DNA of 64,000 bases from NCBI GenBank assembly GCA_008330645.1, contig VLTN01000031.1:310001-374000 (forward strand), written 5' to 3'. The DNA comes from Cafeteria roenbergensis (taxonomy: Eukaryota; Sar; Bigyra; Bicosoecida; Cafeteriaceae). Of the stretch, positions 12,164 to 64,000 are shown in pieces. The position numbers and the translations under genes are program-made. Numbering within the stretch: the stretch's first letter is position 1; every line of letters starts with the position of its first letter. The notes beneath the pieces were generated by a model. That model had not been told where the DNA came from. It did not search any database and saw only the letters and a list, made by a program, of their open reading frames with translations.

Positions 12164-13609
12164 TCAGGCCTCGCCCTTGGCGAGCGCCGACCGCAGCCCG
12201 CAGTTCTGGCCGTAGTAGCCCCTGAAGCACTTGCACAGGCCGCTGGTGCGGTCGCAAATGCCCCTGTTGGAGCAATCGACGTGGCACTTGTTTCCGACCG
12301 CGCCAAAGTCCACCCCCAGCGTGCCTGTCACGCCCGTTCCTGGGTTGGCCCTGTCTGGCGTGCCGTCCGATAGCACCGCGCCGTGCCACGTCTCGCCGTT
12401 GTCCGTGTAGTACGAGCAGTCGGTCTCGTCCCGCAGCTCCGTCGAGGCATCGTCCCCCGACGGGCAACGCCGCTGGGAGCAGTCTGCGCCGAACCACGAC
12501 GTGGCCTGCGTTTGCCCCGCGCCGAACCCCACTGTCCAGATGCTGTCACACACGCACCCGAAGATCTTGTTTTCGTCCCAAGTCACCGTGGACTCGAAGC
12601 CGCCGTACGTGGTTGCTGGCCCCACGGGAAACGCGTTCGCCTCGCCTGCCATTTGCGACATGGACACACACTTGCCGTGGCCAGAGCAGCCGTTGGGACA
12701 CGACGCTGCGCAGCAGGGCCGGGACGGGGCGAGCGAGGGGCGGGCGGGGTGGAGCGTGGCATGGCGCGGGCGGCTGCAACCAAGCGTTGCAAGCGCTCTG
12801 GTCCTCTCGCGGCCTGCAGGCCCCCCGAACGCCGGCCCCGCATCACTGGGCAAGCCGCGGGGCGGAAGGCCCTGGCAATGGGAACTGACTAGCAGCCCCA
12901 GGACGGGGAAGCAGCGCCTGGGGGGGGTGGGGGCAACTCGCAGCGAGGCCGTGCCGACGCAACGCATGGCGCGCGCCTGCCGCCCCTGCAACAGCGCGGC
13001 ACCGCGCGGCGGGCCGGAGATCTCACAGCGCTGGCACGCGTCGCCCTCAAACCCTGCAAAGCATCTGCAGCGGCCCGTCCCCCGGTCGCAAATGCCGGCG
13101 TTGGAGCACTCGGCGTTGTTGTGGGCAGTGGTCGCTCCCGTCGGGATGTCCACCCAGGCCTTGTCAGCGGGGCACACGCCTGCGGGAAGGCCACGGAAGG
13201 CGACAAGAAGCGCCCAGCGACGCCTCGAAGCAAGCAAGCCCGCGCGTGGCGGCCCTGTGCGGCAGTGGGCACGGCCTCTGCGGCTGCGCCCGCGCCCGCT
13301 GGGCCGGCGCGCAGCCGCCCCTGTCCGCGGCCTGGCGCCCCCTCTGCGGGGGCAGATCGTTCCTGGGCCCTCCCCGCCCTGCACTGCGAGACCCTGGGCA
13401 CGCGCTTGCGAGTCCTCACGCTGCGAGCAGTCTGGCGCCTTGTACACGGCGAGGTCAGACTCGGAGCCAAAGCCGTCAAAGCAGCGGCAGACCCGGTTCG
13501 TCTCGTCGCACGTCCCGTGGCTGTTGCAGTTGTTCAGGTGCGCGCAGGCGCTGGCATCGCTCCCGCGAGCCAGCAGCAGCGCGCACAGCGCGGCCGCGAC
13601 CCCGCGCAT
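12164..13609 (-). CDS. Secreted EGF/tenascin-like protein
   Basis: Small secreted adhesion-type protein of about 294 residues. Exons: 13420-13609, 13027-13179, 12164-12705; both introns begin GTGAG and end CGCAG. A clear signal peptide (MRGVAAALCALLLARGSDA) is followed by cysteine-rich EGF-like modules: CNSHGTCDETNRVCRCFDGF, CSNAGICDRGTGRCRCFAGF, CPNGCSGHGKC and, at the end, CSNRGICDRTSGLCKCFRGY. The linkers DCSQRVCP (made by the first splice) and DCSQRRCPSGDD recur between modules. I recall this arrangement from tenascin/teneurin-like proteins of oomycetes and other stramenopiles. No C-terminal membrane anchor is visible, so a free extracellular or surface-matrix protein is likely. It shares a 212-bp divergent promoter with NPRL2. 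Confidence 0.8.
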   Translation of the reverse strand: MRGVAAALCALLLARGSDASACAHLNNCNSHGTCDETNRVCRCFDGFGSESDLAVYKAPDCSQREDSQARAQGLAVQGGEGPGTICPRRGGARPRTGAAARRPSGRGRSRRGRAHCRTGPPRAGLLASRRRWALLVAFRGLPAGVCPADKAWVDIPTGATTAHNNAECSNAGICDRGTGRCRCFAGFEGDACQRCEISGPPRGAALLQGRQARAMRCVGTASLRVAPTPPRRCFPVLGLLVSSHCQGLPPRGLPSDAGPAFGGPAGRERTRALATLGCSRPRHATLHPARPSLAPSRPCCAASCPNGCSGHGKCVSMSQMAGEANAFPVGPATTYGGFESTVTWDENKIFGCVCDSIWTVGFGAGQTQATSWFGADCSQRRCPSGDDASTELRDETDCSYYTDNGETWHGAVLSDGTPDRANPGTGVTGTLGVDFGAVGNKCHVDCSNRGICDRTSGLCKCFRGYYGQNCGLRSALAKGEA

Positions 13610-13821
13610 CCCAGGGGCTCGTCAAGCCGTGTGGGGCTCGCCTCACCGCGCTGCCAAACGCCTGGCAGAGCCGGCCGGACCCGCTCGCGCAGACGCCCGC
13701 GGCGCGGCCCCGCAAGCCCGGGTCACACCGCTACCTCGGCCTTGGCGCGCCGCAGCCCGCATTCGCTGAACGGGGCACGGGCGGCCCCGCGTTTCGGTGC
13801 CTCCCAGCGCAGCTGCCAGCC
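13610..13821. promoter_or_regulatory. Divergent promoter region EGF protein/NPRL2
   Basis: A 212-bp spacer between two divergent start codons. It contains one exact GGCAGAGCC at 13664-13672. Promoter function is inferred from position. Confidence 0.5.
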
Positions 13822-16800
13822 ATGGAGCATGTGCTGCTGGGCGCGGCCGTCGTTGTGTTCGACAACACCCTCGGCCCGGTGGTGCTGGCGGAGTACCCGG
13901 CAGGGTGAGACTGCACTCGGCATCGGGCGGCGGCGGCGTGGAGCGGGGCCCTTGTGTTGAGAGGTCGAGGCCTGCGCATGCTCGAGTTGCTGCTGCAGCT
14001 CGCCCCGCCGCCGCTCGCGCCCCCCACCACCGAAGCCTGCCGGACCAGCGCATGCCTGTTTCTGGCACCAGGCCCCGGCCCGTCCTGCCCTCAGGCCCAC
14101 TGCTGTGCGGCCTTGCCCCCCCCCCCCCCATTTTCCGGGGGCCGTCGTTGCTGCTTCGGGTGCGACCCCGCGATGCACGCCAACAAAACCTGCGTCGAAT
14201 CCACGCCGAGCTCCGGGCACGCCTACTGTGGTTCTTGCTTTCCCGACGGGGCCCGCGTGCCACGCCGCCGCAGGACGCTGCTGCAGAGTCACGTGGACGC
14301 GGCGTCGGACCTTCTCGTAGCGCGCAACTCGCTCTGTGGCCGTGTGCTGAGCTTCCCGCTCCCCTCGGCAGCGCCGGACGGCACGCCAAGGACCGGTGCC
14401 GCCGCCCCTGCCGGAGGCAGTGCTGGCGGAAACGGCGGAGCGAGTGGGGGCAGAGCCGCTGTCGCTGGGCGCGCCTCGGCACCAGCGGCTCACGCAGCCA
14501 CACCAGCACACTCCGCCGACCCACCCCCGACCCTGGCAGCGGCTGCGCCGTCGCCATCGTCATCAGCAGCATCCGCAGCTGCCAGCGCAGCCGCTGCTGC
14601 AGCAAAGACAGCACCGGCCCCAGCCGCAGCCGCCGCTGCGCCGCCTTGCGTCTCCCAAAGCCGCGCCGTTCTCTCCGCGCGCGACCCCGTCATCGTCGTC
14701 CAGCCAGCCTCCATTGAGGACTCTCGATACCCCCGAAACGCGCTGCGCCTCGGTGTAGCCGTCGTCGTCGACGGCGTTGTGCGCACCACCACGGCCGCCA
14801 GGGGGCTCGCCCTGCACCACCTGCAGAGCGGCTGGCTGAGGGAGCGAGTGGCCGTCAGGTGGGGGCCGGTGGTCAGACAGCTCTGCCGGAACATCTGCGC
14901 GGCAGAGGCGCGCCTAACCTTTGCCGTGCACAGGCCCGTCCTCGCGCGGCGCTACCTGGGGCACGTGCTGAGGGCAGCGGTCACGCAGCTCGCTGCCACC
15001 GGGGCGTGCACCGTGGCGACAGCGCCGGGGCTGGTGCTGGATTTGGCGGTGTCGCCGTGCCGGCCCCCGCCCCCACGGCCGTCTGAGGTGGCCGCGTCCC
15101 TCGCAGGCGTCAACGCCGCCGCTGTTGCCGCGGCCACCAGGGCAGCAGCGATGCTTGGACCCGATGCCATGGCGCGCCTTCAGAGGCCGCCCGAGTGGCG
15201 GGGCGCACGGGCTCTGCCTGCCACGCTTGAGCCGTCCGCGTCGCTCGTTCTGGTCGAGCAAGCGGCCACCGCACCCAGCGGCGGGACCAAGCCGCACGCT
15301 AGCGGCGCGGGGGGCGGAGGTGCGGCTCCGGCCGTGTCGCCTGTCTCGGCATCCGCAGCGAGGGCATCCTCTGCTGCAACTGCAGCTTCAACTGCAACTG
15401 CCAATGCCCTTGCGCCCGTAGGCGCAGCCTCTGCGGGCGAGGACTCTAGCGCAGCCGCCGGGCCAGCCCACCGAGTTATCTTGCACCCATCTCTCGTGTG
15501 GTCGGACCTGGCCAAGGCCAGGGGGACTTCGGGCAGGCCCATGTCCGCCACGCTGGCTGGGCCCGGGGTGGCCGTCGCTGTCAAGTGCGAGCACCGCGAT
15601 GACGTGCCAGGGAGCGCGACCCACGGAAGGTCGTCGTCGTATCCGACGGCTCTGCCTTCGTCACTGGCGTCGGCCGCTGCCATGGCGGCTGCTGGCTCGC
15701 ACGGTGTCCCCGCAACTGCCCTGGGCCAGCAGCCATCCCAGCAGCAGCAGCAGCCATCCCAGCAGCAGCAGACATCTCAGCCGGGGAGTCACTGGCCCGC
15801 CGCGTCAGCGTCATCCACGCGCCACGGGGCGTCGGGCACCACCCCTACGGCCGCTGCACCTGGCCCCGCCTCTCTCACCGTGCACGCGCCCCCCACAGCC
15901 CTGCACGGAAGGTCAACGTGGATTCCCGAGGCCGTGCTGCCGGCCGCCCGGCGTGCCTGCCCTCCCCGCGGCAGCGTCGCCCGCCCCGAGAGCGTCCCCG
16001 TCCGCCTGCGCGACTTGGACGCGCTCGTCGGCCGCGAGTGGGATCTCGCCACGCGGCGCACCCTTCCATTCATAGACGGCATCGCCCACGTGCGCGCCAT
16101 CGCCACGGCAGCCGACGTTGCGTTGCCCGTGGCGCTGGCGGTGGTGGACCACCTCCACGCCCACGGCCTCGTGGCCCTGGCCGATGCCTTCGCCCCGTAC
16201 GCTGTGTACAGGCTCGGTTCCGAGGAAGAGGCCGTGGCGGAGGAGCCCTGGGCTGGGGGCGATCCCGCCGGTGTGGCGGGGTCGGTTGGCACGGCGGACG
16301 GCACCGCCGCACCGGCTGTCGGCTCCCGCCGCCACGGTGTGCGCCTTGTTCGGAAGCGGGGCCCCTCCGGCCCGCGGCTGGGGCGGCTGCTTCACGAGCC
16401 GCGCCTCCAGAGCGCGCTGCTGAGAGTGGTTGCCGCCGACGTGCTCGCGCAAGAGTCGCTGGGGTGGGCTGCCGAGACTGCCGCCGGCCTGCGAGCGGAC
16501 GGCACCTGCCTTGCCCAAGCTGGCGCTCGGGGGCTCAGCGGGCCCACGGCCGCGCCGCCAGTGCCCTCTGCGCCGGCGAGCGACGGTGGGGGGGTGACCC
16601 CACGCTCCACCACCCACACTGCCACTCTGGCGGAGGAGGCGGCTGCCGCTGTGGCCAGCGGCGGCGCAACGGCCGCAGCGGCAGCAGCCGCTGCAGCAGC
16701 AGCCGGGACCGACGGCACAGACGCCGCAGCCGGCAACCTCATGGCCGGCGAGGGCACCGGAAACCAGCTCTGGCCGGCTGCGCCCAAGGGTCGTCGCAGC

Positions 16801-17259
16801 CGCGCAATGGTGGTGAGAGACGCTGTGCGGCTCCTGGGGATGTTCGGGAGAGGCCGCAGCGTCCAGGCGGTGTTCGGGGGCAGGCACGGCCGATCCCTGC
16901 TGCAGCGGCTGGGAGTCCCTGCAAGGGCCATCGTCGTGTTCGCCCTGGTCCACGGGCTCCTGCGGCGCTGTCACGAGTACCCCACCCCGTGCGAGGACGA
17001 CGATGCCTCGCCCCGCCAGACCGAAGCGCCCGTTGCCGCAGCAGCAGCGGCCGCTGCTGCGGCGGCGGCGGCGGGAGCCACCCCCGCTAAGCGGGCCTCC
17101 ACCTCCCGCAGGTTCATCAGCCAGTGGAGGCCTCTTCTCGACGGGTCGACGTCAATGGATGGGCTCTGCTGCGCGGCCCGCCAGGGCAGGTCCGCAGTGC
17201 TTGCAGAGCTGCGCAACGCGCCCGCGCCGCTCCCTTCATTCGCTGTGATTCGGTGCTGA
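13822..17259 (+). CDS. NPRL2: NPRL2, GATOR1 subunit
   Basis: Homolog of nitrogen permease regulator 2, a catalytic-core subunit of GATOR1, the GAP complex that turns off Rag GTPases and so TORC1 on lysosomes or vacuoles when amino acids are scarce. Exons: 13822-13904 and 14274-17259; the intron starts GTGAGA and ends CGCAG. The product is about 1,022 residues, far longer than human NPRL2 (about 380). Conserved blocks appear in order: the N-terminal longin strand ending TLGPVVLAEYP; DSRYPRNALRLGV (compare KKYSRNALLFNLGF); WDLATRRTLPFIDGIAHV (compare WDLTTQQILPYIDGFRHI); and the C-terminal helices ending near SMDGLCCAARQGRS. Between blocks are long Ala/Pro/Gln-rich insertions, with a poly-Gln tract coded at 15728-15771. 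It shares a divergent promoter with the EGF gene and converges on RPA2. Confidence 0.85.
15728..15771. repeat. CAG repeat coding poly-Gln in NPRL2
   Basis: Interrupted CAG repeats code for Gln runs broken by Pro-Ser within a disordered insertion of NPRL2. Similar GCN/GCA runs give poly-Ala tracts near 16660-16710 and 17030-17075. Confidence 0.85.
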
Positions 17260-17589: not shown

Positions 17590-18961
17590 TCACTCGGCTT
17601 CGGTGCTCTTGACATGCTCGTCGTCCGTGGTGGAATACACGGCCCCGGTCATGCTGAGGTCTTCGATCGCCTTGCGAACCGTCTCCTCGGTGACCCCGCG
17701 GGACTGCACCTGCCTGGCGAGGTCGCCGATTGCCATGCCCTGGTCGTCAGTGCACTTGGCCAAGATGGTCTTGAGATGCTCGTGCAGGTCGAACTCGCTC
17801 ATGCCGCCGCCTCCGCCGACGCCGCTGCCGCTGCTGCTGCCCGCAGCACCGCCGCCACCAAGCACCGGCTTGACGTCCAATCCCGCCCCGAAGGAGCTGG
17901 CGCCGGACCCCATGCCGAAGCCGGACGAGGAGGCTTGCATCGAGCCCATCCCAAACCCGGTGACGGCAGCGGCCCCAGCACCGGCCCCAGCGCCGGCGCC
18001 GGCGCCCTCGGGGTTGGACCCCCCCTTGGAGTACGGGATCCGGCGGGTGCGGTCGACGTGGACATGGATAGCCTCGACGAAGTGAAGCGTGATCTCGTTG
18101 GGGTCAGCGAGCGGCTTGATTGTAGAGCCGTTGAGGATCATTCGGCCGTTGCTGGTCTTGACAGCCGCAGACACGGAGACGAAGGTGCCCTCCCTGCGGG
18201 GGCGGGGCGCGGCGGGGCGGGGCGGGGGGGCGTTGCGCGGGGGGGCTGCGCGAGGCAGCGGTCTGGAGCCGTCAGGGGAGCGCTGGCCGGGGGGAGGGGG
18301 GGGGGCAGCACCAGCTCGAGAGAGCGGCTCACGTGACAGCGGCGTCCATATCGGCCTTGCGGGCTCCGTCGGTGGTGCCGTCCGCGGCTTGGGGGTACCA
18401 GTACTTGATCCTGACGCGGCCGGTGCCGTCCTCGATCTGCAGACTCAGCGCCGAGTCGGACGGGTCAGCCTCCACGACGCGGCCTACCAGCTTGATGTCC
18501 TTGAGCTCGGTGCCGTCGAGCAGCACGCGGCCCTCCACGTCGGAGATGGTCGCGGTCTGGTACTGGCGAATGGTGGCGGGCGTGAGGGTGAGCTCGTCGT
18601 ACCCCTGCGTCAAGCGAGAGCGAAGCCAGGCAGATCCGGGCAGCATCGCGAGCGTGGCGGGATCAACACGGCGCAGCCGCTTCAGCAGGCAATGCCGGGC
18701 GGGGCCTGGTCGGGCACCGCGCGGCCGCAAGCGCCACTCGCCACATCCCTGGGCGGTCGCTGCGCCGGCCCGACGGGTCCCGCGCGCCTGGCCCGTGCGG
18801 GAACGAGAGGGCGCGCTTTGCGTCCACATCTGACGGACCAGCGCGGGCGCGCACCGGCGGGATCTCACTCCCTGCTTGGTGGGCGTGGCGCCCATGCCCT
18901 GGGACATGCCCATGCCGCCCTCGCTGCCGAAGCCGCCCATCGTCGCGCTACCGCCCATCAT
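17590..18961 (-). CDS. RPA2: Replication protein A 32 kDa subunit
   Basis: Second subunit of the single-stranded-DNA-binding RPA trimer used in replication, repair and checkpoint signalling. Coding exons: 18869-18961, 18333-18604, 17590-18193; both introns start GTGAG and end CGCAG. The product is 322 residues. The Gly/Ser/Met-rich N-terminus (MMGGSATMGGFGSEGG) corresponds to the phosphorylated N-tail of RPA2. The OB fold runs from LTPATIRQYQTATI through VRIKYWYP and TFVSVSAAVKTSNG to the helix ending VEAIHVHVD. After a Gly-rich linker the winged helix starts near FDLHEHLKTIL and ends SMTGAVYSTTDDEHVKSTEAE, closely matching the human HIYSTVDDDHFKSTDAE end. The tandem ATG start immediately follows a CGCAG acceptor, so there is probably an intron in the 5' UTR. 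Confidence 0.93.
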
Positions 18962-19160
18962 CTGCGGGGCGCACAAACGCGGGAGGACGCGAACCAGACA
19001 CGCTTCGCGGGCGGCCACTCGCGGGGGAGCTCCGCGCTCTGAGAGTTGGGCGCCCTTGCGTGCGCGCGAGCACATTTCAAACCGGCAGCGCCCTCAAGGC
19101 GCGGGCCTGCCAGGCGGCACCGCCCGCGGCCCCCGCCCCCGGGTCCCTGGCGAGGCTCAC
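18962..19160 (-). other. Probable 5' UTR intron of RPA2
   Basis: On the minus strand a donor GTGAGC at 19160 is preceded by CCAAG, and a CGCAG acceptor ends exactly at the ATGATG of RPA2. The 199-nt length fits other introns here. The upstream frame has no ATG that could be joined in frame, so the first exon is best read as untranslated. Confidence 0.6.
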
Positions 19161-19543
19161 CTTGGAAGGTCCTGAGGCTGGCTCGGGCCAGTCGGAGGGG
19201 AGGAAGTGGCGCCCTGGCCGGCGCCGCGCAAGGCACACTGCATCGCTGCCGCAAACTCCCAAGCCGGGCGGCAGAGCCGCATAGTTGGGGGGCAGAGTCA
19301 CGCAGCCACGGGCAAGAAAACTACCGGCGCAAGAGCGCCCCCTGCCGGCCGTGACGGGAGCTGACGGGCCGCCCCCCGCCCGGCACACCCGGGAGAGCGA
19401 CGCCCGAAGGCCTGCGCCCGGCGAGGGCTGCTGGGAAGCCGCGGCCTCCAGCTGCCTGCGGTCTGGGGCAAGGGGCTCGGGCGTGTTCTCGGTCGCTTGT
19501 GACCCAAGGCTTGGCGGACGCTGCTGGGCTGCGCGCGGGGACC
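18962..19543. promoter_or_regulatory. Divergent promoter region RPA2/SNF1
   Basis: A 582-bp spacer between divergent start codons. Part of it is the probable RPA2 leader intron (18962-19160). The remainder holds an exact GGCAGAGCC at 19270-19278 and a variant GGCAGAGTC at 19291-19299. Promoter function is inferred from position. Confidence 0.5.
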
Positions 19544-22874
<3,331 letters not shown>

Positions 22875-42121: not shown

Positions 42122-42156
<35 letters not shown>

Positions 42157-45255: not shown

Positions 45256-46391
45256 ATGGGCGGAACCGCCAGCCTCCCCGCCGTCCCGGCCAAGCAGCTC
45301 AAGACTCTGCTGAGCGTCACCCACTGTGAGCGAGGCCGCGCGGGGCTCCTGCGGCCGAGCGAGGCGCCCCTCTGAGGCGCCGTGTTTTGCTGGGACCGAG
45401 CGCCTGCAGCCTTGGGGCGCCGGCCGGGGGGGGGGGCGAGCCCTCCCCGGTGCGGCAGGGGACGTGCTGAGGCGCGGGGCTGCTTCCATTTCCCTCGTGG
45501 AGCGCCGCCGCCCTGGGCCCTCGCCCCTGCGGCCGTGGCGCAGCGGTCTCGCCGCGGGAGCGCAAAGCAGTTGCTCGACCGTCGCTTCGGGCAGCGCTCG
45601 GCCGCCAGCCCCACGCCTGCCCCCCCGCGTGCGCGCCCCGGCTTGCCTCGCCCGCCCCTATCGATGCGCAGTCAGTGAGCTCCACCTCAAGGCCCTGCAC
45701 GCGCACTTCCAGTCGCTTGCCGACTCCCGCCACGGCGGCGGCGGCGCCACTGACGAGGCCAGCGCGCAGCCGCACATCTCCAAGAAGGGCTTCCTGCGCG
45801 CCCTCGGCGCCGAGGAGGGCTCCTCGCTCTTCATCGAGCGGGTGTTCACGTGCATGGACGGCAACCGCGACGGGTACCTCAACTTCCTCGGTGAGAGCGC
45901 GCATCTCGCGCGCCCGCAACGACATCTGACGCGCTGGACAGGCGACTGTCTGCCACGGCCTCGCCGCCCCGCCACCCCGATCCGCGCCACCTTGCCCGCG
46001 CTCGCCTGACGCAGAGTTTGTGATGGGCCTGGACCTGCTCAGCCCAGAGGCCACCGCGGGAGAGCGCCTGCGGCTGCTCTTCGACGTGTACGACATCGAC
46101 GGCGACGGCCTCGTGTCCAAGACCGAGTGCCGCGCCCTGCTCGCGGCGGCCTTCGTCGAGGCCGGCGTGACTGTGCCGCCCACGGACCTGCAGAAGGTCG
46201 TGGACAAGACGTTCGAGGCGCACGATCTCGACCACGACGGCAACCTCAGCTTCGCCGAGTTTCAGACCATGGCTGACAAGCGCCCCGGCTTCCTCCGCCC
46301 CGTCACGCTGCACACGAAGCAGATCATCGACCAGCACCTGGCCAAGGCGGACGGTACGGCCGCTGGCGGCGCTGCCGCGGCCTCCTCTTGA
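45256..46391 (+). CDS. CNB: Calcineurin B-like EF-hand protein
   Basis: Calcium sensor of 221 residues from the calcineurin B / CBL / CIB superfamily. Exons: 45256-45325, 45672-45890, 46015-46391; introns begin GTGAG and end GCGCAG and ACGCAG. The N-terminus MGGTAS fits the N-myristoylation pattern MGxxxS seen in calcineurin B (MGNEAS). Three canonical EF loops are present: DGNRDGYLNFLE (completed by splice 2), DIDGDGLVSKTE and DLDHDGNLSFAE; the first EF hand, around ISKKGFLRALG, lacks a good loop. The tail TKQIIDQHLAKADGT ends in Ala/Gly. It could be the regulatory subunit of calcineurin or a CBL-type kinase partner; the N-terminal insert (HGGGGATDEASAQPH) argues against an orthodox calcineurin B. 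Confidence 0.78.
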
Positions 46392-46591: not shown

Positions 46592-47416
46592 TCATCGCCG
46601 GCCGCGCGCCGGGCCGCCGTGAGAGCCCCGGCCACGCCCGCCGCGCCCGCTGCTGCCTCCACGGCCGCGCCCCCTGCCGCCGCCGCCGCCGCCGCCGCGA
46701 CCCCCGCCGCTCCGCGCCCCCCCGCGGCCTCCGAAACCGTGCCCTGGTCCGACGGGGTCGGCTTCCCCACCAGCAGCCCTCTGCCCGAACAGCGACGCTG
46801 CCAGATCCGCCTCCACCGCGTCCACCCCAGCCCGCGCCTCGGCCTGCTCCTCCGCCTGCAGTCTCTGCTCCATGCGGAGGGTGGCTCGCTTCATGCTGCT
46901 GTGCTCCGCCGCCGCCGCCTCGGCGGCTGCTGCGCTGCTGACCACGAGAGCGCTGTCTGGGGCCAGGCGCACTCTCACGGGCTTCGCGAGGCCGGCTCTG
47001 CCACCCACCAGGCGCACGGCCACACCGCCCCCGCCGTCGGCGTCGCCACCGTCGTCCGAAGCACCGGCGGCACGCGGGCGCCACGTCGTGCCGGCGATGT
47101 CACCCACCGCCGTCCGGGCGTGGACCATTCCAGCCTGTCCGCCCGACGCGTCGGCCTGGGCCACGGCCTCTTCGTGGCCCGCGTCAGCCAGCATCGCAAG
47201 CTCCTCGTCCAGCGCAGCGTCCTCTGCGCAGCGGTCGGCGGCCCCGCTCACCATGTCCGCCCGTCGGTCAAGCGTGGCCAAGGTGGCCGCCGCCTCCTCG
47301 TCAGAAAAGTCCAGTTCATCGTCATCGTCATCGCCCTCCTCGTCGTCGTCATCGCCCTCCTCGTCATCGTCGCCCTCACCATCATCATCGTCGTCGTCGT
47401 CGTCGTCGTCGTCGCC

Positions 47417-47450
<34 letters not shown>

Positions 47451-52660: not shown

Positions 52661-52957
52661 GCCGCCCTACCTCCGTGGTCGGTGCCGCACACAGGGGCGG
52701 AGCCTCGCGGGGGCAGAGACGCGCGCTGAGTGCCATCGCGCGCCGCGGGAGCGAGGCCTTGCCGGCCGTCGGAGCAGGGCTCGCCCCCGCTTTCGACAGA
52801 GCCTCCCGGCGAGCGGCAGCGTAGCCGACGTTGTGGGGGCAACCGAGCAGCCAGCGGCCCGCGAGCGCCCGGCCCTCCGCACTCGACGCGGTCGAGGCCC
52901 AGCCTCTCGCGAGCCAGCCAGCCAGCTGCCCCGAGCCGGCTGCCGGAGCGCTTGAGG
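52661..52957. promoter_or_regulatory. Divergent promoter region UPF2/TRAPPC11
   Basis: A 297-bp spacer between divergent start codons. It contains the variant GGCAGAGAC at about 52712-52720 and GACAGAGCC near 52796. Promoter function is inferred from position. Confidence 0.45.
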
Positions 52958-55900
52958 ATGCAGTCCGTGCCGCCGGAGGTGCTGCGGCCGCCCGAGCCCT
53001 ATGTTGCCGTGCTCGCCGACAGCTCCACGGGGTCCATGCTCGCGCGAGCCCTCACTGCCGCCAACACAACCGCCACTGGCGGCTTTCTGGTGGGCGGCAG
53101 GCAGCCCGGGCAGGTCGCGGCCTCGTCGGACCGGTCTTCGCGCCTGGCGCTGTCCTACCGCGCAGTGGACCTCGCTGCCTTCCCCAGGCCGGACGCCATC
53201 CGGCACGTGCTGGGGCACCCTGGGCCTGCCCCCTCCGCTGCCGATGCCATCCTGCGCGAGGATTGGCACGTGGCACGGGCGTCTCTCCCGTGCGCGGCGG
53301 TGGCCGTGGCCATTCTGGATCCGTCGACGCCCCCCGAGGCGTGGGCTGCCGCGCGCGAATCGGCCGTGGGCCGGTGGCGCGCAGCCAAGGCGTGTCTGGC
53401 CGCCAGCGACGCCCCCGTGCACTGCGTGGCCATCTGGCCAGGCGGGCCCGAGCCTTCGCAGCGTTCTGCTCGCGAAGCCGCGTCGAAGCGACTTGCAGAG
53501 TGAGTTGCGACTGCCGCGCTGCCCGCCCGCGGGCGCTGATGTCCGGGGACGGGGAAAGGGGGGTTGGCAAGGGGTTGCATGCGGCCTTTGCGATTGCTCT
53601 GTGCCTGCCCGCTGCTGCCGGGCGGGCGCAGACCGCCCTGTCCGCGCTGCGCGCCTGTGCTGCGAGCGGGCTTGTCGTTGTTTGTTGTTCCGAGTGCCTC
53701 GGCACGGCCTGCCGTGCGCAAGCTCGCGCCATCCCTGCCAGCCAGGCCCTGCACCAGCGACCCTCCCCCCCCCCCGACGCCTTGCCCCGCCTGCGCTGAT
53801 TCGCGCGCAGACTGCGCTCTGCCCTGGGCCCGGACTGCCCCTCCGCTCTGCTGCTGACAGCCGAGGACCTCGCCGCCGCCGCATCGGACGGGGACTCGCC
53901 ACCCACGTCGCCGGGACCCATCTCTTCGCGCGCCACGCGTCTGGAGGCGGCTCTGCGTTCCGCCGCCGCCGCCCACCTGCAGGGAGCGATCCACCGCGTG
54001 TCATCGGCCACAATTGCAGGGTGGGCGCCCACGGACCGCTGCCGCGCTGCCTTCGCCCGGGCAGAGGCTTGCGAGGCCCTTGGGTTTGCCGAAACCGCGG
54101 TGAACGCCTACGCGGAGGCCGTGTCGGCTGCAGGGGCGGTCATCGCCTCGGCCCCCGAGCTCGGCGCCGCAGGCTGCGCCGGCAACGCCATCCTCTGGGC
54201 AGCAGCGCGCGCGCTGCAAGCCACGCTGGCAGCCGGATCGGCCAGCGCAGCGGGCTTCGCCGCCGCCTTCCACAGAGAGGCCTTGGTGGCCATGGGCAGG
54301 GTCCCCAGCGCCGCGGCCGGCAGCAGCCTTCGCGCGCTGTGCGTGCGCGCCCGCCACTGGGCGCGTGTGGCGGCGTTGCAGCTTCTGCACGCAGAGCTGC
54401 TCCAGCTGGCCATGGTGTCCGTTGCGCTGGCGCCAGAGGGCGTCGCGCCGTCGCAGACTGACGCCCCTGCTCAGGCTCTGCCGCACATCAGCCCGGCGGT
54501 GTTTTATTCCGCCGCTGCCCGCTCCGCGGCGAATCAGCGCCTGGCAGTGGAGGCAGTGCTAGAGGCAGCCGCTGCCGCGGGAATCGCCCCCCCCGACCCT
54601 GCGGCCGCAGCAGCGGCAGCGGCAGTGGCAGGCGATGGCTCGGACGTCGCCCCTGACTCTGTGTCCGGATCTGCATCCGCAGCTGGAGCCGGAGCCGGTG
54701 CCTCAACGGATACGGCGCCGCCAACCTTTGCCGGGGCTCCCCCGACGAGCGACATCGACTGGATCAAGGCAGCCGGGTCGCTCAGCGAAGCCCACGAATC
54801 CGTCCTTTCAGCCTCCGCTCAGGCGCAGGCCACCAACGAAACGGCCCTCGACATGGCCGAGGAGGCCGCAGGCGGCAGGCGCGGCCGGCTCCCGGGCGCC
54901 TTCGGCCGCCGCGCCGGTGTGGCTCTGCCGCCCTTTCTGCCTGCGTCGGCATCGCCCTGCCTGGCCGCTGCTGTGGCGGGGCCCTCGGTAAAGAAGGGCC
55001 TCCCCTTCGCCGCGAAACCGCCCCGCAGAGCCACCAGGGCAGAGCTGGCGCGCCGAGTGCTGGTCGGGCGGGAGCTGCTGCTGCGGGCAGCGGGCGCGGC
55101 CCGTGCGGCCGCCGGCAGCGCGACTGGCGCCGAGCCAGCCGACTGGTCCACTGAGTGGTTTGACAAGACCGGCGTGCGCGGCGGAGCGGCGCTGGCGCCC
55201 CGTCTGGCGCCCGTGCCGAGCGAGGGCGGCGCTCCCTGGGAGGAGGACGCTGCAGCCGCCCTGGTGCTGCTTCGCCCGGCTCTGCACGGTGTCCTGTCGG
55301 ACGGGACGGCGCCGGCGTCCCTGGTGGCACCTCTGCTGGTGATGACGGCTCGCGCAGCGGCGGCGGTGAGAGACGCGCTGTCGCTCGCCCACGCTCTCTG
55401 GTGCCTGGCAGGCATCGCAGCCAGCCAAGCGGCTCTGCCGTCCTCCCCGGCGGGAACCCCAGCACCCTCCGACACCGGGTGCGGCTGGCAGGTCCCAGCC
55501 CCCCGGGCCGCCGTGTCCGGTGCTGCCGCCGCTCTCGGATCCGCCTTGTCATCCCTCGGCGACGTCCTGAGCGAGGACGCCGCTGCCCCGGCAGGCGGCG
55601 CGGGCGGCGCTCTGGCCCTGCTGCGCAACGGCCTTCGGCCGGTTCTCTCGCACGGATCCTTCCTACCGCCAGTGCTGCCCGCCGTGCCGGAGTCGGCGGG
55701 CGCGCTGGGCGCAGTGCTGTCCGCCAGACCCGTGCCCAAGGCGGTGCACAGGCCCGCCGCAGCGCCGGTTCCCGTGCCGATCCTGGCATCGCTGACCTTT
55801 GAGCGCCGGGCGGTGCCCGTGGGGGGCCAGCTCACCGCCACGCTGCGCCTCCGTTTCGATGTGCCGGGCCCCGCCCCGGGCGCGGACGAGGCCCCAGCCA

Positions 55901-58900
55901 TCGAGCTGCGATCCGTGACGCTGCTTCTGACCCGTCCAGAGTACTCCGTCAGGCTTCGCCACGACGCCTCCGCCCCTGCCCCGCCGGCAGGGCCCGGCGC
56001 CGAACCCGTCCCGGTCGACCTCGCGCCGCCGGCAGAGCCGTCCCGCACCGGCGTGCGCTGGGAGGGCGCGGCAAACCTCCGCCTCGCCGCAGGTCGCACG
56101 CTCAGCTGGCGCCTCCGCCTCCGCGCCCACGCCCCGTACCCTGCGCAAGCCGTGGTCGCCACCAGCGCGGTCGCGGCGGCCTCCGCCCCGCCGCAGCCCC
56201 CCACGGACCTGCCCTGGGCCCCGCTGCGACCGGCCTCCCTCCGCCGCGCCGCCAGACGCCTGGCCGACCCTGTCAAGCTCGGGGCAGCGTTCGGTGCCGG
56301 GGGCAGCGGCTCCTTCGACGTGGCCGGCGCGGGAGGCTCCGCCTTCTGCACCGACCCCGCTGTCATGGATCACAAGCCGGCTCTGCCGACAGCAGCATCG
56401 GAAGTGGATGGACCCTTCAGCTCTGCCACATCGGTGCCGCGCGTCCGTGCCCTGTGCGACGCCGCCGAGCAGCAGGCCCGGTCCTCTGAGCACGCGGCCA
56501 CGGCCTGGGGCATGCTCGCCAGAGGCGGCGCGGGCAGCGCGGCGGCCGCCCCTGCAGTCGCCGCCGCGCTCTCTTCCGCGGCAGCGGCAGCGGCAGCGGC
56601 TGGCTTGGCCGGCCACGCCGCCTCTGCCGGCTCCGGGAGGCTGCGGCTTTGCTCTGCCGTGGCTGAGTGGGCGGGAACCACCGACTCCTTCGAGGGCCAC
56701 ACCGGGTCGCAAGTGGCTCTGCTCCCGCTGCAGATCGTGACCGGCCTCGCGAAGGGCGCACCCGTGGCGGCGCGTGCCGGGAGCCGGGGCGCGGCTTCGC
56801 CTGCGCTGGCCGACGACGCCGCCGCCACCATGGCGGAGCGCGGGGGCGTCGCTCACACGCTGGGGGATCGCGCCGCTCCTGCTGGCAGAGCCGCTGTTCG
56901 AGCAGCTGCGCTGCGCATCGGAGACGTCGGACCGGCCGCCTCGGCCGGCCTCGCCAGCGGACCGTTCGGCATCGTGCAGCGGGCTGCAGAGGCTGCCGGG
57001 GCAACGCACCGCTCCAGCAGCGTGAGAGAGCTCTGCAGGTGGGCGGCCGCGGCGGCAGCGGCCGTTGCAGCCGCGTCCGGCGCTGGAACGCTCCCGTCCA
57101 GCGTAGACTCGTTGGAGGCCGCCGCGGATGACGTGGCAGCCCTGCTGGCCACGGGAGGCGCTCTTCTTCCGAGCGACGCGGAGGCGCGGCGGGGGCTGGA
57201 CGGCGCGGCGGCGGTTTCGGCTGCGGCGGGCTCTGCGGTGGCAGGTGCGACGCCGTCTGGCGGCGGCTTTGATGACGTGTCCGTCGTGGCGCGGCCGCCA
57301 GCGGTGGACGTTGCGGTGCTGGGCGACGGGCTGCCGGCCTGGGAGGGCTCCGCGCACTGGCTCGTAGCCACCGCCACGGCAGCACAGGCAGAGGCAGGGT
57401 GCGGCTGTGTCGGGCCGGGCGTGGTCGTGTCCGGCCTTCGGCTCGCTGCCTCCGTCGTGGCCCCGCTGACGGAGCGGCGTGGCGCCGACGGCTCTGCCGG
57501 TGCCTCGGCCGGTGCCGTGGGCCGCAGACTGGCCGAGTGCGTGGTGCTTGTGCCCGCGGGGGCGTGGGTGAGGCTTGATGCCACCGACGGCGACGAGGGC
57601 GCCGCTGGTGGCGAAGCCGCTGCCGGCCCTGTGGCAGCCGGCGAGCAAGCCAGCGCCGCGGCTCTGTGCTCGGCTGTCCAGGGGAAGATCGGACGGGCGG
57701 CAGAGCTGCTGGCGGCTCCCAAGGGCTCGGCAAGACAGGGGCTCGGCGATGCCGCGGACAAGCTGCGGGTGCTGCCGGCGACGGCGAGTGTGGCCCTCCC
57801 CCTCCTCGAGTGCGGCGTAACCGCGGCAATTCGTTTCGCCGTGGTGGTTCCCACAGTGGGGTCGAGCGCGGGGCCCGTGGCCGCGGCAGCGCGTGAGCCC
57901 GAGGCGGCGGCGGCCGCCCCCACGCTGTGCGTGCGAGCCGCTGTCGCCGCCGTGGGCCCGCTCTCCCGCGCCGCCGCCCTCAGAGCCGCAGCCCCAGCCG
58001 GAGCCGTGTCCAATGCCGCCACGGGCGCCCACACGGCGGCATCTGCAGGCGCGGCAGCGGCACCGAAGGCCGGAGCGGCAGCGGCAGCGGCATCGGCAGC
58101 GGCAGCGGCCGGTGACAGCGATGCAGCTGCCGCCGGAGCCAGTGTCGCCCGAGGCATCCAGCGCCCCACCGCGCTGCTGGCCGCCGGCGGGCGCCTTCCG
58201 GCTGAGGCCGGGCCCTGGTCGGAGGCGCCCCCCTCCGTGGCGGCCGCGGCGGCAGCTCACCCTGCGCTGGCGGCCACGCGCGCTGCGGATGCGTCGTGGG
58301 CGGTTTCGCCGCCGCTGTCGCGGGCAGCCGACCTGTTCACATCGGGGCAGCGGCCACTGGTCGCCGCGTCGGCAGTGTTCCCGAGCGAAGGCAGCCATGA
58401 CGGGGCCAGCCGAGGCGGCGCTGGCCGCACTCCGCCAGGCTGCATCGGTCCCCACATCGCTCCGGGCGACACCGCGTCGCTCATCCTGGGCCTGAGTTGC
58501 CCGGCGTGCCTGCCCGCCGGTGCCCTCGACCCGGCCTCTGCCCCGAAGCCCCGCTCCACGGCGCAGCAGGTTGCGCTGGCCAAGTGCTGGGCGGACGCGG
58601 AGGCGCTGGACCCCGTCGCGAGGCAGAGCGTCCAGCTGGCTCTGCTCCGTGTGATGTGCCCGCCGGCGCTGCCGAGAGCGTCACTGGTCTGCAGCAGCGT
58701 GGCCGTCACGCCGCCGCCCGCAACCGCCTCTGGGGCGGACGGGGGCGCCGCCCCGGGTGCCTCTGCGCATGGTGAGGCCGGGCGTGTGGCCTCGGCGCAT
58801 GCCCCGCAGCTGAGGGCGGCGCTGTGGCTGCCAGGCGCAGACGAGCTCGAAGGCGCAGACAGCAGCGACAGCGGCAGCGACCGCCGCAGCGACGCGAGAA

Positions 58901-59727
58901 TCAGCTTGGCGTCGGCCGAGGCGCCTGCGCTGGTGGGCGAGCCCTCCCCGGCCGGGGCGGCGGCGGCGGCCAAGGCCGAGGCGGCAGGGGCCTTCCCTGG
59001 CACGCTGGGCTGCGGGTGGTCCGCCGCGCTGCGGCTGCGAGCGCCGCAGCCGGCGGATCTATTCGCCGCTGCTTCCCGATCGCCTTCGGGCCGAATCGTG
59101 GGCAGCGCTGAGATGCGGCTGGCAGCCGCAGCCGGGCGGGGGTCGGGCATCGAGAGGGTTGCTCTGGGGACCGTGCGAGCCCAGTGGGAGGAGCGCACTG
59201 TGGGCGAGGGCTCCGCTCTGTGGCGGCCGGTGCGGACTGGCCGCTGGTCGGCTGCGGTTCCCAGCCTGGCGCTGGTCGCGCGGCCAGTGCAGCTGCGAAT
59301 CACGGGACCGACGGCGGTGCCTGCAGGGGGCGAGGCATCGGCTGTGGTGGAGCTTCTGTCGGCTCTGCCGCGGCCGCTGCTGGTTGACGCAGCCTGGGGA
59401 GACCACCCTGTGGCGGTGCCGTCTGGCCCACAGGCGCGCCTGCCCGGGGATGCGGCTGGCGACAGGGGCGAGAGTGTTGGTCTCGTGTCCAGCGGCGCGG
59501 CGTCTCGTCGTGTCCTCCTCCGGCCTGGCGTGCTCTGCCGGATCGCGCTGCCCTTGATGGGCCTCAACTGCGGGGTCTTCCTCCCGCCCCGCGTGCGTCT
59601 TAGGGCTCTCGCCGATGGCTCGCCAGCTGGAGCGGAGGAGGGCCGCTCGCTGGTCGCAGCTGCATCGGACATGGGCTCCGTTGTGGGAGCGCGAGGCGTG
59701 CGACTGCCGCCCGTTGCTGTGATGTGA
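52958..59727 (+). CDS. TRAPPC11: TRAPPC11-like TRAPP complex subunit
   Basis: Predicted subunit of the TRAPP III-type tethering complex that activates Rab1 in ER-Golgi traffic and autophagy. Exons: 52958-53499 and 53811-59727; the intron starts GTGAGT and ends GCGCAG. About 2,152 residues against about 1,130 in human. The N-terminus follows the TRAPPC11 plan: a strand-rich start (YVAVLADSSTGSMLARAL), VAVAILDPSTPPEAW...AARESAV, PVHCVAIWPGGPEPSQRSAR, then the foie-gras region with RCRAAFARAEACEALGFAET and AVNAYAEAV (compare [20 protein letters not shown]). Ig-like beta domains follow, for example FERRAVPVGGQLTATLRLRF and VQLRITGPTAVPAGGEASAV, and the end LPLMGLNCGVFLPPRVRLRA resembles the gryzun C-terminus. 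Long Ala-rich insertions explain the size. TRAPPC10 or TRAPPC9 are less likely alternatives. Confidence 0.7.
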
Positions 59728-60655: not shown

Positions 60656-63600
60656 TCACTCGGCACTCGTGGCTGCATCAACTGCGCTTGCAGCGAGGCG
60701 GGCCTCGTCCGCATCGGCCTGGGCAAGGTCAAGCTCCTCCTCCTCGTCGGAGTCGTCCTCTGCGTCCTCGCCGTCGCTGTCCACGACGCGAACGTGGGCC
60801 GTGCCGCCCGGCGACATCACTGCCCTCACGCGCCGCCGAGGTCCGCGCGCCAGCCCGGGGGCAGCCTCTCGCTCAGCGTCCTCTTCCGCGTGGAGCCTCC
60901 CAGTGCGCTTCCGTCGCTCTGGAGTCGCGCCGTCGTCGTCCGGACCTCGGCTGGCAGCCATGGCCCAGCCCGACCGACCACCCTTTCGCAGCAGCTCCAC
61001 GTACGGGTCCAGGGCCTCCCGATCAACGGGCTCTCGAATCAGCCCAGGGGTGTCAGGGCTCAAGCCTGCGAACCGCGCAGAGCGCCTGCGGCCGCCTTGG
61101 GCTGGAGGAGCGTTCGCCGCCCTCGCGGCCACCGGCCCGACGCTGACGTCACTGATGTCAAGTGCCCCCAGGCTGAGCCGGCTGTCTGGCGCCACGCGCG
61201 CGTCCGTCTTGCCGGCAGGCGTCTTTGGCGGCGGCGCTGGGGTCTCGCTGCCCGCATCCGCCTGTGCGCAGCCAGAAGCGCGTTGGACCCCGCGGGTCTC
61301 GTCAGCGCTGGCACCGTCGGCGTCGCCATCGTCGTGGGCTTGCGGCCCCCCGCTGGCGATGTCGGGCACTTTCTCCTGCGTTCCACGGGGCTCACCACGC
61401 GCTCCAGCCTCGCTGCCATCCTGGCCAGGCGGCGGGGAAGGCGGGTGCCCTCCCGCTGTCGCTGGCTCTGCATCAGAGACTGCTTCCGCTGGAGTCGATG
61501 CGGCAGCGTCGCCCCCCGCGGCTGGCTCTGTTGCAGCGACTGCGCTACTGGCTCTGCCTGACGCCCCGTCCCCAAAGGACCCGGCGAGCAGATCCTGCGG
61601 GGCGTTAGCAACAGCCTCCGCCTCCATCAGCGCGCGCAGCTGCCGGCGCCGCCGCTGCGTGCCCTTGCCCGCAAGCCTTCCCACCCGCCCTGCAGCCGCT
61701 GCAGCGCTCTCCGCTTTCCCACCGTGCTCCGGCGAGTCCTGCGCGGGGGCTCCTCCGTGGAGCTCAGTCCACCGCCTGCGGCACTGCGCCGCGTCGCGGG
61801 GGGCGGGGCCCACAGCGTGGCCGGCGGCCGCAGCCCGCTGGCGACTCGGCGACACGGCGGCCAGGCTCATGGCCACCTTGGGCCAAAAGCGCGACGTGGT
61901 CGGGGGCAGCGCCGCGTGCGCCTGCCGCAGGGCAGCGTCCTCGTCCGACGCCCAGCCGTCAGCTCCCCGCAGCCGCCTGTGCCCGCCTCCCGCCGATGGC
62001 GAGCCAGCGTGCAGATCGGCGTCACTCTCTGCATCGCTCTCTCCGCCGCCGGGAGGGGCAAAGCTGTCGTCGCCCTCGTCGGGCTCAAATGCCTCGTCCT
62101 CAGAGCCCGGCGTTGCAGCAGCAGCAGCAGCAGCAGCAGCAGCGCGCTGCCCAGGGCTGATCGGTGCAGGGCTCGCGGCACCCGACGCCAAGCCCCCGCC
62201 GCCACCGCCTATAGAGGCGTCGGATGCGCGCGCCCGGGGCCGGGCCGCCCCAGGGGTCGTCACTGCGGAGGCGGCATCGGCCATTCGAATCGCTGCGACA
62301 GCGGCAGCCGTCCGTCGCGGCCTGCGGGTGGCAGGGGACTCAGCCGTCCGCTCTGACACGTCTCCCTCGGCAGAGCCGGCAGAGCTGGCAGAGCTGGCAG
62401 ATCCAGAGCGGCGGCGGCGGGGTTTGGAGGCGGCGGCCGACGCTCGGCCGCTGTTGCGCGGCCGTTTTGCGTCCGGTGGAGGCGCCGCAGAAGCTCGCTT
62501 CGAGCGGCCCCGTTTCGCAGCGGGGCGGGCCGTTGCGCCGCCAGGAGCCGCGGCCGGCGAAGAACTCCCTGCCGTCGGTTTCGCGCTCCGAGATGGCTTC
62601 GAGTCATCCGCCCGTGGCTTGGCCCGGGCCGCGCTGGCCCGCTTCTTGCTCTTGAGAGGGCTAGCTGCGCGGCGCCGCTGCGGGGCTGCACGTCTGGCGG
62701 CCTTGCTCGTGGCGGAGCTGGATCCACCAGCTCGATGCTTGGAACCAGCGGCAGAGCTGCGGCTGGCTCTGCCTCCGCGGACGCCTCGGGAGGCACTGCC
62801 CCTGCCGCTTGAGTCGCTGTCACTGCTGCTGTCACTGCTGCTGTCACTGCTGCTGTCGCTACCGCTGCCACTACTGTTGTCGCTACCACTGCTGCTGTCG
62901 CTGCTGCCGCTCATCTCCCGGCTAGTGTCCCCGGCTCCGTTGGGCCGCGTTTGCGCTCCGTCCGCTCGCTTTGATCTCTTCGCTGCAGGAGCAGCTGCCG
63001 CGTCCCGCTTGGATCCGCCACCGCGCGGTTTCGCCACAGCATCGCGCTCCCCCGTCGGCACCTCCAGCACCGGCTGCGAGAAGCGGTACGACAGCCGCTC
63101 TCCGCGCCAGAACTCCATCCTCGGCAGCGACACCCGACCGCTCCGCGTCGCCCTTGCGGCCAGGCCGGTGCTGTCGGGGCACTGGGCGGGAGACGGCGAG
63201 AGGCTGGGGCTAGCGCCCCGGCCTCGCCCGTCGTCGCCGTCGCCCGCGGCTGGCAGCCCGCTTCTCGCCGCCTTGCCCGATTGGCCGCCGGTGGGAGGGG
63301 ACGCGACTCTGGTCCGGGAGTCCTTCCCCGACGTCCTCTGTCGGGAGGCGGCGCTGGACGCGCCACTTCGGCCCGACGTGGCGCTTCGTTGTGTTGGGGG
63401 GGAGGCCACGTCGGCGAGGCGGACGACAGCGGTGCCCAGGATGGTGCTTGGCGCTGACAGGCCAAGGAGAGACGACCCGACGGCGGAGGAGGAGGAGGAG
63501 GAGGAGGAGGCACCGCTGCGAGGAGCGGACTTGCCCGAGCCAGAGCCCGAGCCAGGGGCCTCAGGATGGGCTCGGGGCGGATGCTTGCTGCCTGGCGCTA

Positions 63601-64000
63601 CTGCTGCAGACTGTGCTGTTCGTGCGGCAGAAGCGGCCGCTGGCAACGACGCTGACGACGACGACGCTGACGACGCTGACGACGACGACGACGATGCTGG
63701 CGCCGCATCCGCCGCTCCCCGCCGATGCGCCTGCCCGCGTCGCTGCCCTGTCGTCGCGGCGAGGGCGGGGGAGGGGCGTGTCTGGGGTCGCTTGCGATCG
63801 CCGCCGGCGTCGGCAGGGACCATGGGCCGAGCAGCCGCTGCGGCGGACAGGGCTCCCAGTGACCCCAGCCCTCCCAGCAGTCCCAGGAGCGCCGACGAAG
63901 GTGCGGCCGCGGGGGGCAAGCGCGAGCCAGAGCTCTTCGCCGGCGGGGCCCGCCTGCGCCTCAGTGCCCCGCCTGCCGACTTGGAGCGGGGCGCCTTCGC
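60656..64000 (-). CDS. KNL2: KNL2/MIS18BP1-like centromere protein, 5' end outside window
   Basis: The frame is open from the stop at 60656 to the window edge (at least 1,114 residues); the start lies beyond it. Two motifs identify it. Near 63090-63155 is RSGRVSLPRMEFWRGERL, which fits the CENP-C motif (RxSxR....P...[FW]W) that binds CENP-A nucleosomes. Near 61757-61965 is a SANT/Myb-like domain, GWASDEDAALRQAHAALPP then RFWPKVAMSLAA and QCRRRWTELHG, resembling the LPKKEPKFWLEVAEAVG form of the MIS18BP1 SANT. A CENP-C motif followed by SANT is the order in KNL2 of non-mammalian vertebrates; the SANTA domain would lie upstream. The rest is disordered, Ser- and basic-rich, with a serine repeat coded at 62813-62910. 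The C-terminus has VMSPGGTAHVRVVDSDGE and an acidic tail. Confidence 0.7.
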   Translation of the reverse strand, partial: AKAPRSKSAGGALRRRRAPPAKSSGSRLPPAAAPSSALLGLLGGLGSLGALSAAAAARPMVPADAGGDRKRPQTRPSPALAATTGQRRGQAHRRGAADAAPASSSSSSASSASSSSASLPAAASAARTAQSAAVAPGSKHPPRAHPEAPGSGSGSGKSAPRSGASSSSSSSSAVGSSLLGLSAPSTILGTAVVRLADVASPPTQRSATSGRSGASSAASRQRTSGKDSRTRVASPPTGGQSGKAARSGLPAAGDGDDGRGRGASPSLSPSPAQCPDSTGLAARATRSGRVSLPRMEFWRGERLSYRFSQPVLEVPTGERDAVAKPRGGGSKRDAAAAPAAKRSKRADGAQTRPNGAGDTSREMSGSSDSSSGSDNSSGSGSDSSSDSSSDSSSDSDSSGRGSASRGVRGGRASRSSAAGSKHRAGGSSSATSKAARRAAPQRRRAASPLKSKKRASAARAKPRADDSKPSRSAKPTAGSSSPAAAPGGATARPAAKRGRSKRASAAPPPDAKRPRNSGRASAAASKPRRRRSGSASSASSAGSAEGDVSERTAESPATRRPRRTAAAVAAIRMADAASAVTTPGAARPRARASDASIGGGGGGLASGAASPAPISPGQRAAAAAAAAAATPGSEDEAFEPDEGDDSFAPPGGGESDAESDADLHAGSPSAGGGHRRLRGADGWASDEDAALRQAHAALPPTTSRFWPKVAMSLAAVSPSRQRAAAAGHAVGPAPRDAAQCRRRWTELHGGAPAQDSPEHGGKAESAAAAAGRVGRLAGKGTQRRRRQLRALMEAEAVANAPQDLLAGSFGDGASGRASSAVAATEPAAGGDAAASTPAEAVSDAEPATAGGHPPSPPPGQDGSEAGARGEPRGTQEKVPDIASGGPQAHDDGDADGASADETRGVQRASGCAQADAGSETPAPPPKTPAGKTDARVAPDSRLSLGALDISDVSVGPVAARAANAPPAQGGRRRSARFAGLSPDTPGLIREPVDREALDPYVELLRKGGRSGWAMAASRGPDDDGATPERRKRTGRLHAEEDAEREAAPGLARGPRRRVRAVMSPGGTAHVRVVDSDGEDAEDDSDEEEELDLAQADADEARLAASAVDAATSAE
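62813..62910. repeat. Serine-codon repeat in KNL2-like gene
   Basis: Repeats of the unit CTGCTGTCA/CTGCTGTCG (plus strand) encode a Ser/Asp-rich tract (SDSSSDSSSD type) on the minus strand. A second serine-coding GAC/GCTGAC repeat lies near 63635-63700 of the same gene. Confidence 0.85.

Follow-up and report, generated by a model that had tools for sequence, protein, structure and literature searches.

Strand alternation, short divergent spacers and a GGCAGAG motif in a gene-dense stretch of the Cafeteria roenbergensis genome

Genes and spacers of the window

A stretch of 64,000 nucleotides from Cafeteria roenbergensis (C31:310001-374000, where C31 is its contig, VLTN01000031.1; called the window below) carries fifteen consecutive genes, from a gene for an EGF-repeat protein to one named KNL2, that lie on alternating strands (Table 1). 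All 8 of the 8 head-to-head pairs in the window are less than 1 kb apart, and the heptamer GGCAGAG, or CTCTGCC on the other strand, recurs in their spacers. C. roenbergensis, C. burkhardae in later papers, is a bacterivorous bicosoecid flagellate (PMC6972860). The assembly carrying the window consists of 167 contigs with 36,303,456 bp; that of strain BVI is given in the sections of its report used here as 36,327,047 bp in 170 contigs, with 70.1% guanine plus cytosine (GC) and 8,483 proteins (PMC6972860). Local GC in the window is about 72%.

Alternation of all fifteen genes was the claim of a sequence-only reading of the window, and it is confirmed. In a strand test, each strand was forbidden in turn to a coding model trained on C31:110001-310100 and C5:400001-450000. 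For all 19 of the 19 window genes, the 15 members of the run among them, the model preferred the strand of that reading. The test was only partly blind, since the training labels and the settings for splicing and length were taken from a gene finder already exposed to the window. The weakest margins are those of the EGF, CFAP119 and KNL2 genes. Ten of the 15 run genes have Pfam matches on the same strands (EGF, NPR2, RPA_C, SNF1, BIG, TAPT1, ATG1, Arf, REX1-B and EF-hand), and MFRN, a minus-strand gene outside the run, matches the mitochondrial carrier family. Altogether, 12 of 28 open reading frames (ORFs) submitted from the window gave a Pfam match.

Pfam lends no support to the names LTV1, CFAP119, UPF2, TRAPPC11 and KNL2, and a PDB sequence search with LTV1, UPF2 and TRAPPC11 returned no meaningful match; for these five the strand is supported and the name is only the earlier one. 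Seven of the eight divergent spacers had been put at 212-297 bp. Six of the eight are verified at that size, the RPA2/SNF1 spacer is longer, and the LTV1/REX1BD spacer measures at most 399 bp, depending on where LTV1 starts. The run probably extends to 16 genes and 15 switches through a plus-strand ORF at 63441, beyond which tandem plus genes follow (a desaturase and a laminin-G protein).

Table 1. Genes of the run and divergent spacers of the window, in order of position. Spacers are measured from start codon to start codon; strand-test values are in log units. Names marked with (e) are those of the earlier reading.
Feature	Positions	Strand	Length	Evidence or motif
MFRN/LOG spacer, outside run	2372..2648		277 bp	CTCTGCC at 2564
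EGF-repeat protein gene, first of run	12164..13609	-		Pfam EGF_2 3.2e-14; signal-peptide-like start at 13609 (by eye); strand test 14 vs 0
EGF/NPRL2 spacer	13610..13821		212 bp	single GGCAGAG at 13664
NPRL2	13822..17259	+		Pfam NPR2 2.8e-11; strand test 53 vs 8
RPA2	17590..18961	-		Pfam RPA_C 3.2e-08; strand test 93 vs 0
RPA2/SNF1 spacer	18962..19543		582 bp	GGCAGAG at 19270, 19291
SNF1/AMPK-type kinase	19544..22874	+		Pfam Pkinase and KA1; strand test 124 vs 26
BIG-type Sec7 ARF-GEF	23660..31062	-		Pfam Sec7 7.1e-67, HUS, HDS, BIG2_C; N-terminal exon by eye
BIG/TAPT1 spacer	31063..31302		240 bp	GCAGAG only (6 of 7 bases)
TAPT1 (DUF747)	31303..34536	+		Pfam 1.5e-76; 3' end 34015 or 34536
ATG1/ULK kinase	35237..38223	-		Pfam kinase; top PDB matches ULK2, ULK1
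ATG1/ARFRP1 spacer	38224..38508		285 bp	GGCAGAG at 38344
ARFRP1-like GTPase	38509..39331	+		Pfam Arf 5.5e-31
LTV1 (e)	39570..42754, 5' end uncertain	-		strand test 286 vs 19
LTV1/REX1BD spacer	42755..43153		<=399 bp	GGCAGAG at 42841, 43010
REX1-B domain gene (REX1BD)	43154..44047	+		Pfam 2.9e-07
CFAP119-like (e), short	44273..45033	-		strand test 17 vs 0
CFAP119/CNB spacer	45034..45255		222 bp	GGCAGAG at 45162
CNB, calcineurin B-like EF-hand gene	45256..46391	+		Pfam EF-hands
UPF2 (e)	46592..52660	-		strand test 352 vs 67
UPF2/TRAPPC11 spacer	52661..52957		297 bp	GGCAGAG at 52712
TRAPPC11 (e)	52958..59727	+		strand test 287 vs 56
KNL2 (e)	60656..62284	-		strand test 41 vs 5
Next gene, probable	63441..64000, runs beyond window	+		log-odds (LOD) score 30, weak support; also called by the model of the strand test

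Genes were predicted by a hidden Markov gene finder, self-trained on the sequence under study (C31:110001-384000 and C5:400001-450000), of which 260 kb lie outside the window, 210 kb in C31 and 50 kb in C5. Early self-trained versions came to favour unusual donor sites and failed to find first exons; a hand-set GTRAGY-like donor recovered the first exons of MFRN, RPA2, SNF1 and CNB, which can also be read by eye. The finder's own starts give spacers slightly different from those in Table 1 (264 bp for ATG1, 231 for CFAP119 and 585 for RPA2). Outside the window, 33 of 49 submitted proteins, out of 58 predicted, match Pfam at E <=0.01 on the predicted strand, the only strand checked, with some matches below Pfam's own cut-off. 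For the junction counts, genes with LOD <15 were dropped, except the EGF call (LOD 14), which was retained; junctions above 3.3 kb were kept outside the main count, and the starts of EGF, BIG and LTV1 were set by hand. An older set of starts underlies the shuffle counts of the motif (29, 23 and 5), the 7-mer ranking upstream of 72 starts and the GC of spacers; a newer set underlies the switch rates, the gap medians, the contrast of motif-bearing spacers (14/18 vs 1/17) and the copy numbers per spacer.

An apparent alternation could also be produced by annotation, if tandem genes were fused or small genes missed. Two versions of the finder did split or fuse some same-strand genes differently. 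The model, when run freely, placed two short minus calls within NPRL2 (14289-14714 and 14952-15170, with 345 and 219 bp coding), which we take, on our own judgement, as noise, and further genes of fewer than about 150 codons may lie within the spacers of 700-1200 bp. The finder also overlooked a minus-strand ORF of 3,594 codons at C31:172172-182953 (loci L015-L016), a single open frame with Kelch and TIG matches. Yet the Pfam domains of the ten run genes sit on the strands that alternate, most spacers of the run leave no room for additional large genes, and the overlooked Kelch ORF adds two switches when it is restored (from 43/65 to 45/66 on C31:110001-384000). We consider an artefact of this kind very unlikely.

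The Kelch ORF has a third-position GC (GC3) of 0.72, against 0.61-0.91, mostly above 0.8, among the window predictions, which suggests a second codon-usage class. Its Pfam matches were obtained with 2,609 of its 3,594 residues as the query, and it was the only one of ten gap ORFs to match Pfam. A second coding class for low-GC3 gap genes yielded nothing above the reversed-sequence control, nor did it recover the Kelch gene.

Strand switching and gene spacing

Of the 48 junctions outside the window with a gap below 3.3 kb, 30 switch strand (62%; confidence interval 0.47-0.76; one-sided p 0.056). The rate is 28/41 (68%, p 0.014) for gaps below 1.5 kb and 32/55 (58%, p 0.14) when gaps as long as 20 kb are admitted, and in C5 alone 6 of 9 junctions switch. 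Compared with about 50%, over the 260 kb sample rather than the whole genome, switching at 58-68% is moderately raised at most and is no rule. Within these 260 kb, the strict claim that the genome is organised by strand alternation fails; a milder version, in which genes only tend to alternate, is plausible.

The window itself switches at 17 of 19 junctions against 30 of 48 in its surroundings (Fisher 0.026), a test weakened because the window was picked for its alternation. On C31:110001-384000 the longest alternation comprises 15 switches. In 200,000 orientation shuffles of that stretch, a run of at least 14 appeared in 0.18% and the observed 45/66 switches were reached in 0.28%, both figures including the chosen window. 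When C31 stretches were simulated with switch rates of 58-70%, a run of at least 14 arose in 1.1-11%. Among 8,483 genes, about 0.26 runs of at least 14 switches are expected at a switch probability of 0.5, about 2.7 at 0.60 and about 5.9 at 0.64. The chance of 1 in 2^14 that had been assigned to the run is therefore the wrong yardstick; it leaves out the baseline switch rate and the choice of window, and it overstates the rarity because switching at 60-64% gives about 3-6 such runs per genome. The perfect run of 15 genes mainly represents what the upper tail of switching at about 60-65%, together with window choice, would give, and the alternation appears to be an extreme case of a tendency.

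One may go further and ascribe the whole pattern to near-random orientation, with a long run picked from many windows. The expected numbers of runs just given and the rate of 32/55 outside the window are in agreement with this explanation. Against it stand the C31 shuffles, even with the chosen window included, the preference of short gaps for alternation outside the window as well (9/11 and 12/18, see below), and a contrast in motif content between divergent and convergent spacers that is independent of the run. Chance together with selection of the window is thus, in our view, an unlikely explanation.

Switching is most frequent at short gaps. Over all junctions, 19/21 switch at gaps below 300 bp, 14/21 at 300-500 bp, 8/11 at 500-1000 bp and 6/14 above 1000 bp; the corresponding figures outside the window alone are 9/11, 12/18, 5/7 and 4/12. 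Median gaps are 335 bp for divergent, 370 bp for convergent and 650 bp for tandem junctions, so that both divergent (Mann-Whitney p 0.004) and convergent gaps (p 0.018) are shorter than tandem ones, which also include a 3' end, a point that bears on the divergent-tandem comparison. Of the 23 divergent junctions below 3.3 kb, 18 have gaps of up to 600 bp (193-461 bp in 17 cases), as have 17 of 24 convergent junctions. Divergent pairs mostly have 190-460 bp from start to start, and convergent pairs mostly 200-600 bp from stop to stop.

C/G homopolymers and CT and CA repeats abound in the 24 convergent spacers of C31 and C5 (CCCCCCC 78 times vs 7.5 expected) and may mark 3' ends; the GC of these spacers is below that of divergent ones (67 vs 73%).

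The GGCAGAG motif

GGCAGAG was first spotted by eye in the printed spacers, and the k-mer rankings were run afterwards. It and CTCTGCC are the top two 7-mers upstream of the 72 predicted starts, with 23 occurrences each against 5.8 and 5.6 expected from a second-order background; the equality of the two counts is partly built in because divergent spacers are read once from each gene. Tandem promoters allow a test of orientation bias that is free of this effect, and their last 200 bp contain 4 forward and 5 reverse copies.

Against 300 dinucleotide shuffles, the motif is enriched in divergent spacers (29 vs 7.7) and in tandem spacers (23 vs 8.0), neither count being reached in any of the 300, and is not enriched in convergent spacers (5 vs 5.5 expected, reached in 193/300). 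Among spacers of up to 600 bp, GGCAGAG or CTCTGCC occurs in 14/18 divergent and 1/17 convergent ones (Fisher 1.6e-5), and the 6-mer GCAGAG in 17/18 and 5/17. The rank of the motif among 7-mers is 1st of 1,986 in the divergent spacers of the window, 4th of 3,516 in those outside, 1st of 4,832 in tandem and 3,111th of 4,614 in convergent spacers. The short divergent spacers (up to 600 bp) contain 17 copies in 5,601 bp, which is above the density in coding sequence. Over 38 instances, the bases after GGCAGAG tend to be C/T, C/T and G. In the spacer on the KNL2 side, three copies belong to a local 9-bp repeat.

Two further comparisons were made. Ranking k-mers against coding sequence brought other, non-coding-like words to the top. 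A genome-wide count of CGGCAGAGYYGC (2,046 vs 137 for the reversed pattern) was set aside, since the word also occurs in coding sequence and the control is unfair.

Shared or back-to-back promoters, and related systems

We give about an even chance to the reading that crowded gene ends, arranged around short and probably shared promoter regions, favour alternation. In a densely packed part of a compact protist genome, neighbouring genes would crowd their ends together, and divergent pairs would flank a short promoter region, often with a GGCAGAG element, that probably fires both ways; the element may be a common activator site in these regions. A divergent junction needs only a promoter, a convergent junction only 3' sequence and a tandem junction both, so that switching would be favoured under compactness, and favoured switching would in turn lead to runs of alternation. 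Alternatively, the drive may come from rearrangement, as one that parts a pair would break a shared promoter. Strands, spacings and motif enrichment are observed, while a single promoter serving each pair, its firing in both directions, a factor binding the motif and selection for compactness are inferred. A broader proposition, that most genes are expressed from short bidirectional promoters through a single GGCAGAG-binding factor, and that the sharing of promoters and of 3' ends drives 60-70% switching genome-wide, with long alternating runs as a regular feature, is put forward only tentatively and seems to us rather doubtful.

Compactness without any sharing would explain much of the same evidence. 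Each gene would then have a promoter of its own, set back to back with that of its neighbour, and alternation would follow from close packing, sharing of 3' ends and avoidance of read-through. The 18 divergent spacers contain 17 motif copies, about twice what is found at tandem starts (9, 10 and 12 per 20 starts within 200, 300 and 400 bp), as two promoters predict. This doubling fits two separate promoters, and so the motif marks promoters without showing that one is shared by both genes. Convergent spacers, moreover, differ little from divergent ones in their shortness, and the lack of an orientation bias of GGCAGAG in tandem promoters is what a general activator site would give. On the other side, the 14 motif-bearing divergent spacers have a single copy in 11 cases and two copies in 3; the numbers are small and not decisive. 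Back-to-back promoters are quite possible, with the odds somewhat against them. The bidirectional promoters suggested by the sequence-only reading have partial, indirect support: the short, motif-enriched divergent spacers would fit them, and the copy number would fit two back-to-back promoters equally well.

Besides the doubled copy number, several observations weigh against shared promoter regions as the source of the alternation. Outside the window, switching is not clearly above 50% (30/48, p 0.056). Two tandem blocks interrupt C31, one of four minus genes (C31:251309-259656) and one of six plus genes (C31:270729-293985, including one unannotated gap of 4.6 kb). The evidence from divergent spacers outside the window is modest (12 vs 3.5, p 3e-4, 10/14 spacers, rank 4th), and GGGGCGGG outranks GGCAGAG when 8-mers upstream of starts are compared. 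The motif is not concentrated on the promoter side of 11 long tandem spacers, with 4 matches in the last 250 bp before the start and as many, 4, in the first 200 bp after the stop. With the older starts, the motif density in coding sequence, 1.22 per kb, is not far from the 1.48 of all divergent spacers.

Close head-to-head pairs with bidirectional promoters are already well known, and GGCAGAG is a candidate motif. Nannochloropsis is a stramenopile alga. In N. oceanica, divergent pairs with bidirectional promoters, for instance the ribosomal-protein pair 'Ribi' and VCP2, were chosen by co-expression with gaps <1,500 bp, and one was applied in transgenics, according to the parts of the study drawn upon (PMC5785352). 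The Cafeteria pairs resemble these in that head-to-head genes have a common intergenic region, and differ in that they are chained in a long alternating run, known here from sequence alone.

Short promoter-side motifs have also been described in another stramenopile, Phytophthora infestans, where excerpts of the relevant report list the core promoter elements INR (YCAYTYY), FPR (MWTTTNC) and DPEP (SAASMMS), with no TATA box reported (PMC3599244). Compared by eye, GGCAGAG fits none of these patterns, and while the Phytophthora elements have a forward bias of 1.8-5.9 in the same excerpts, GGCAGAG in tandem promoters is found 4 times forward and 5 times reverse. Dinoflagellates depart from random orientation in the opposite direction, with 0.64-2.32 orientation changes per 10-gene window in the passages cited (PMC5177918); the 58-68% switching of Cafeteria would amount, over 9 junctions, to about 5.2-6.1 changes. 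Among the open-licence papers listed, at the level of titles and the beginnings of abstracts, we found no report on the GGCAGAG motif, on host promoter motifs or gene orientation in Cafeteria, or on host transcription in its group. Gene orientation is not discussed in the available passages of the genome report, whose main text contains no word starting with 'strand' (PMC6972860).

Should the whole genome show the tendency, the gene order of Cafeteria, a free-living eukaryote, would be shaped by crowded gene ends, opposite to the one-way gene arrays of dinoflagellates. Its divergent spacers of 200-300 bp would then also be candidates for two-way promoters in an organism that giant viruses and virophages infect, and GGCAGAG offers a specific point from which to approach host transcription in this group.

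Apart from the run, a search of the assembly for the light-harvesting family PF00504 gave no match; the same search over 14 control genomes was positive in Synechococcus. This agrees with a non-photosynthetic organism and led to the rejection of the Pavlovales (Diacronema lutheri, 73% GC; PMC8379373) as a possible affiliation. Two stretches of about 10-12 kb each, C31:191104-200661 and C5:400001-411925, are lower in GC (65-67%), and the bulk model sees little coding signal in them. They possibly consist of repeats, mobile elements or further low-GC3 genes, and five ORFs from them gave no Pfam match. A direct duplication of 700 bp with 97% identity (L009:1-700 and L009:5274-5973) overlaps two predicted minus-strand genes. 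At C31:266586-269312 (L024:6586-9312) lies a 63-bp tandem repeat of 43 copies with 95% matches, immediately preceded by another repeat with a 78-bp period. Translation of its first 378 bp gives, in one frame, a 21-residue unit rich in Lys, Gly, Pro, Ser and Ala, and the array perhaps encodes a long repetitive protein. The short repeated matches in seven other loci inspected are codon repeats of the GCN type.

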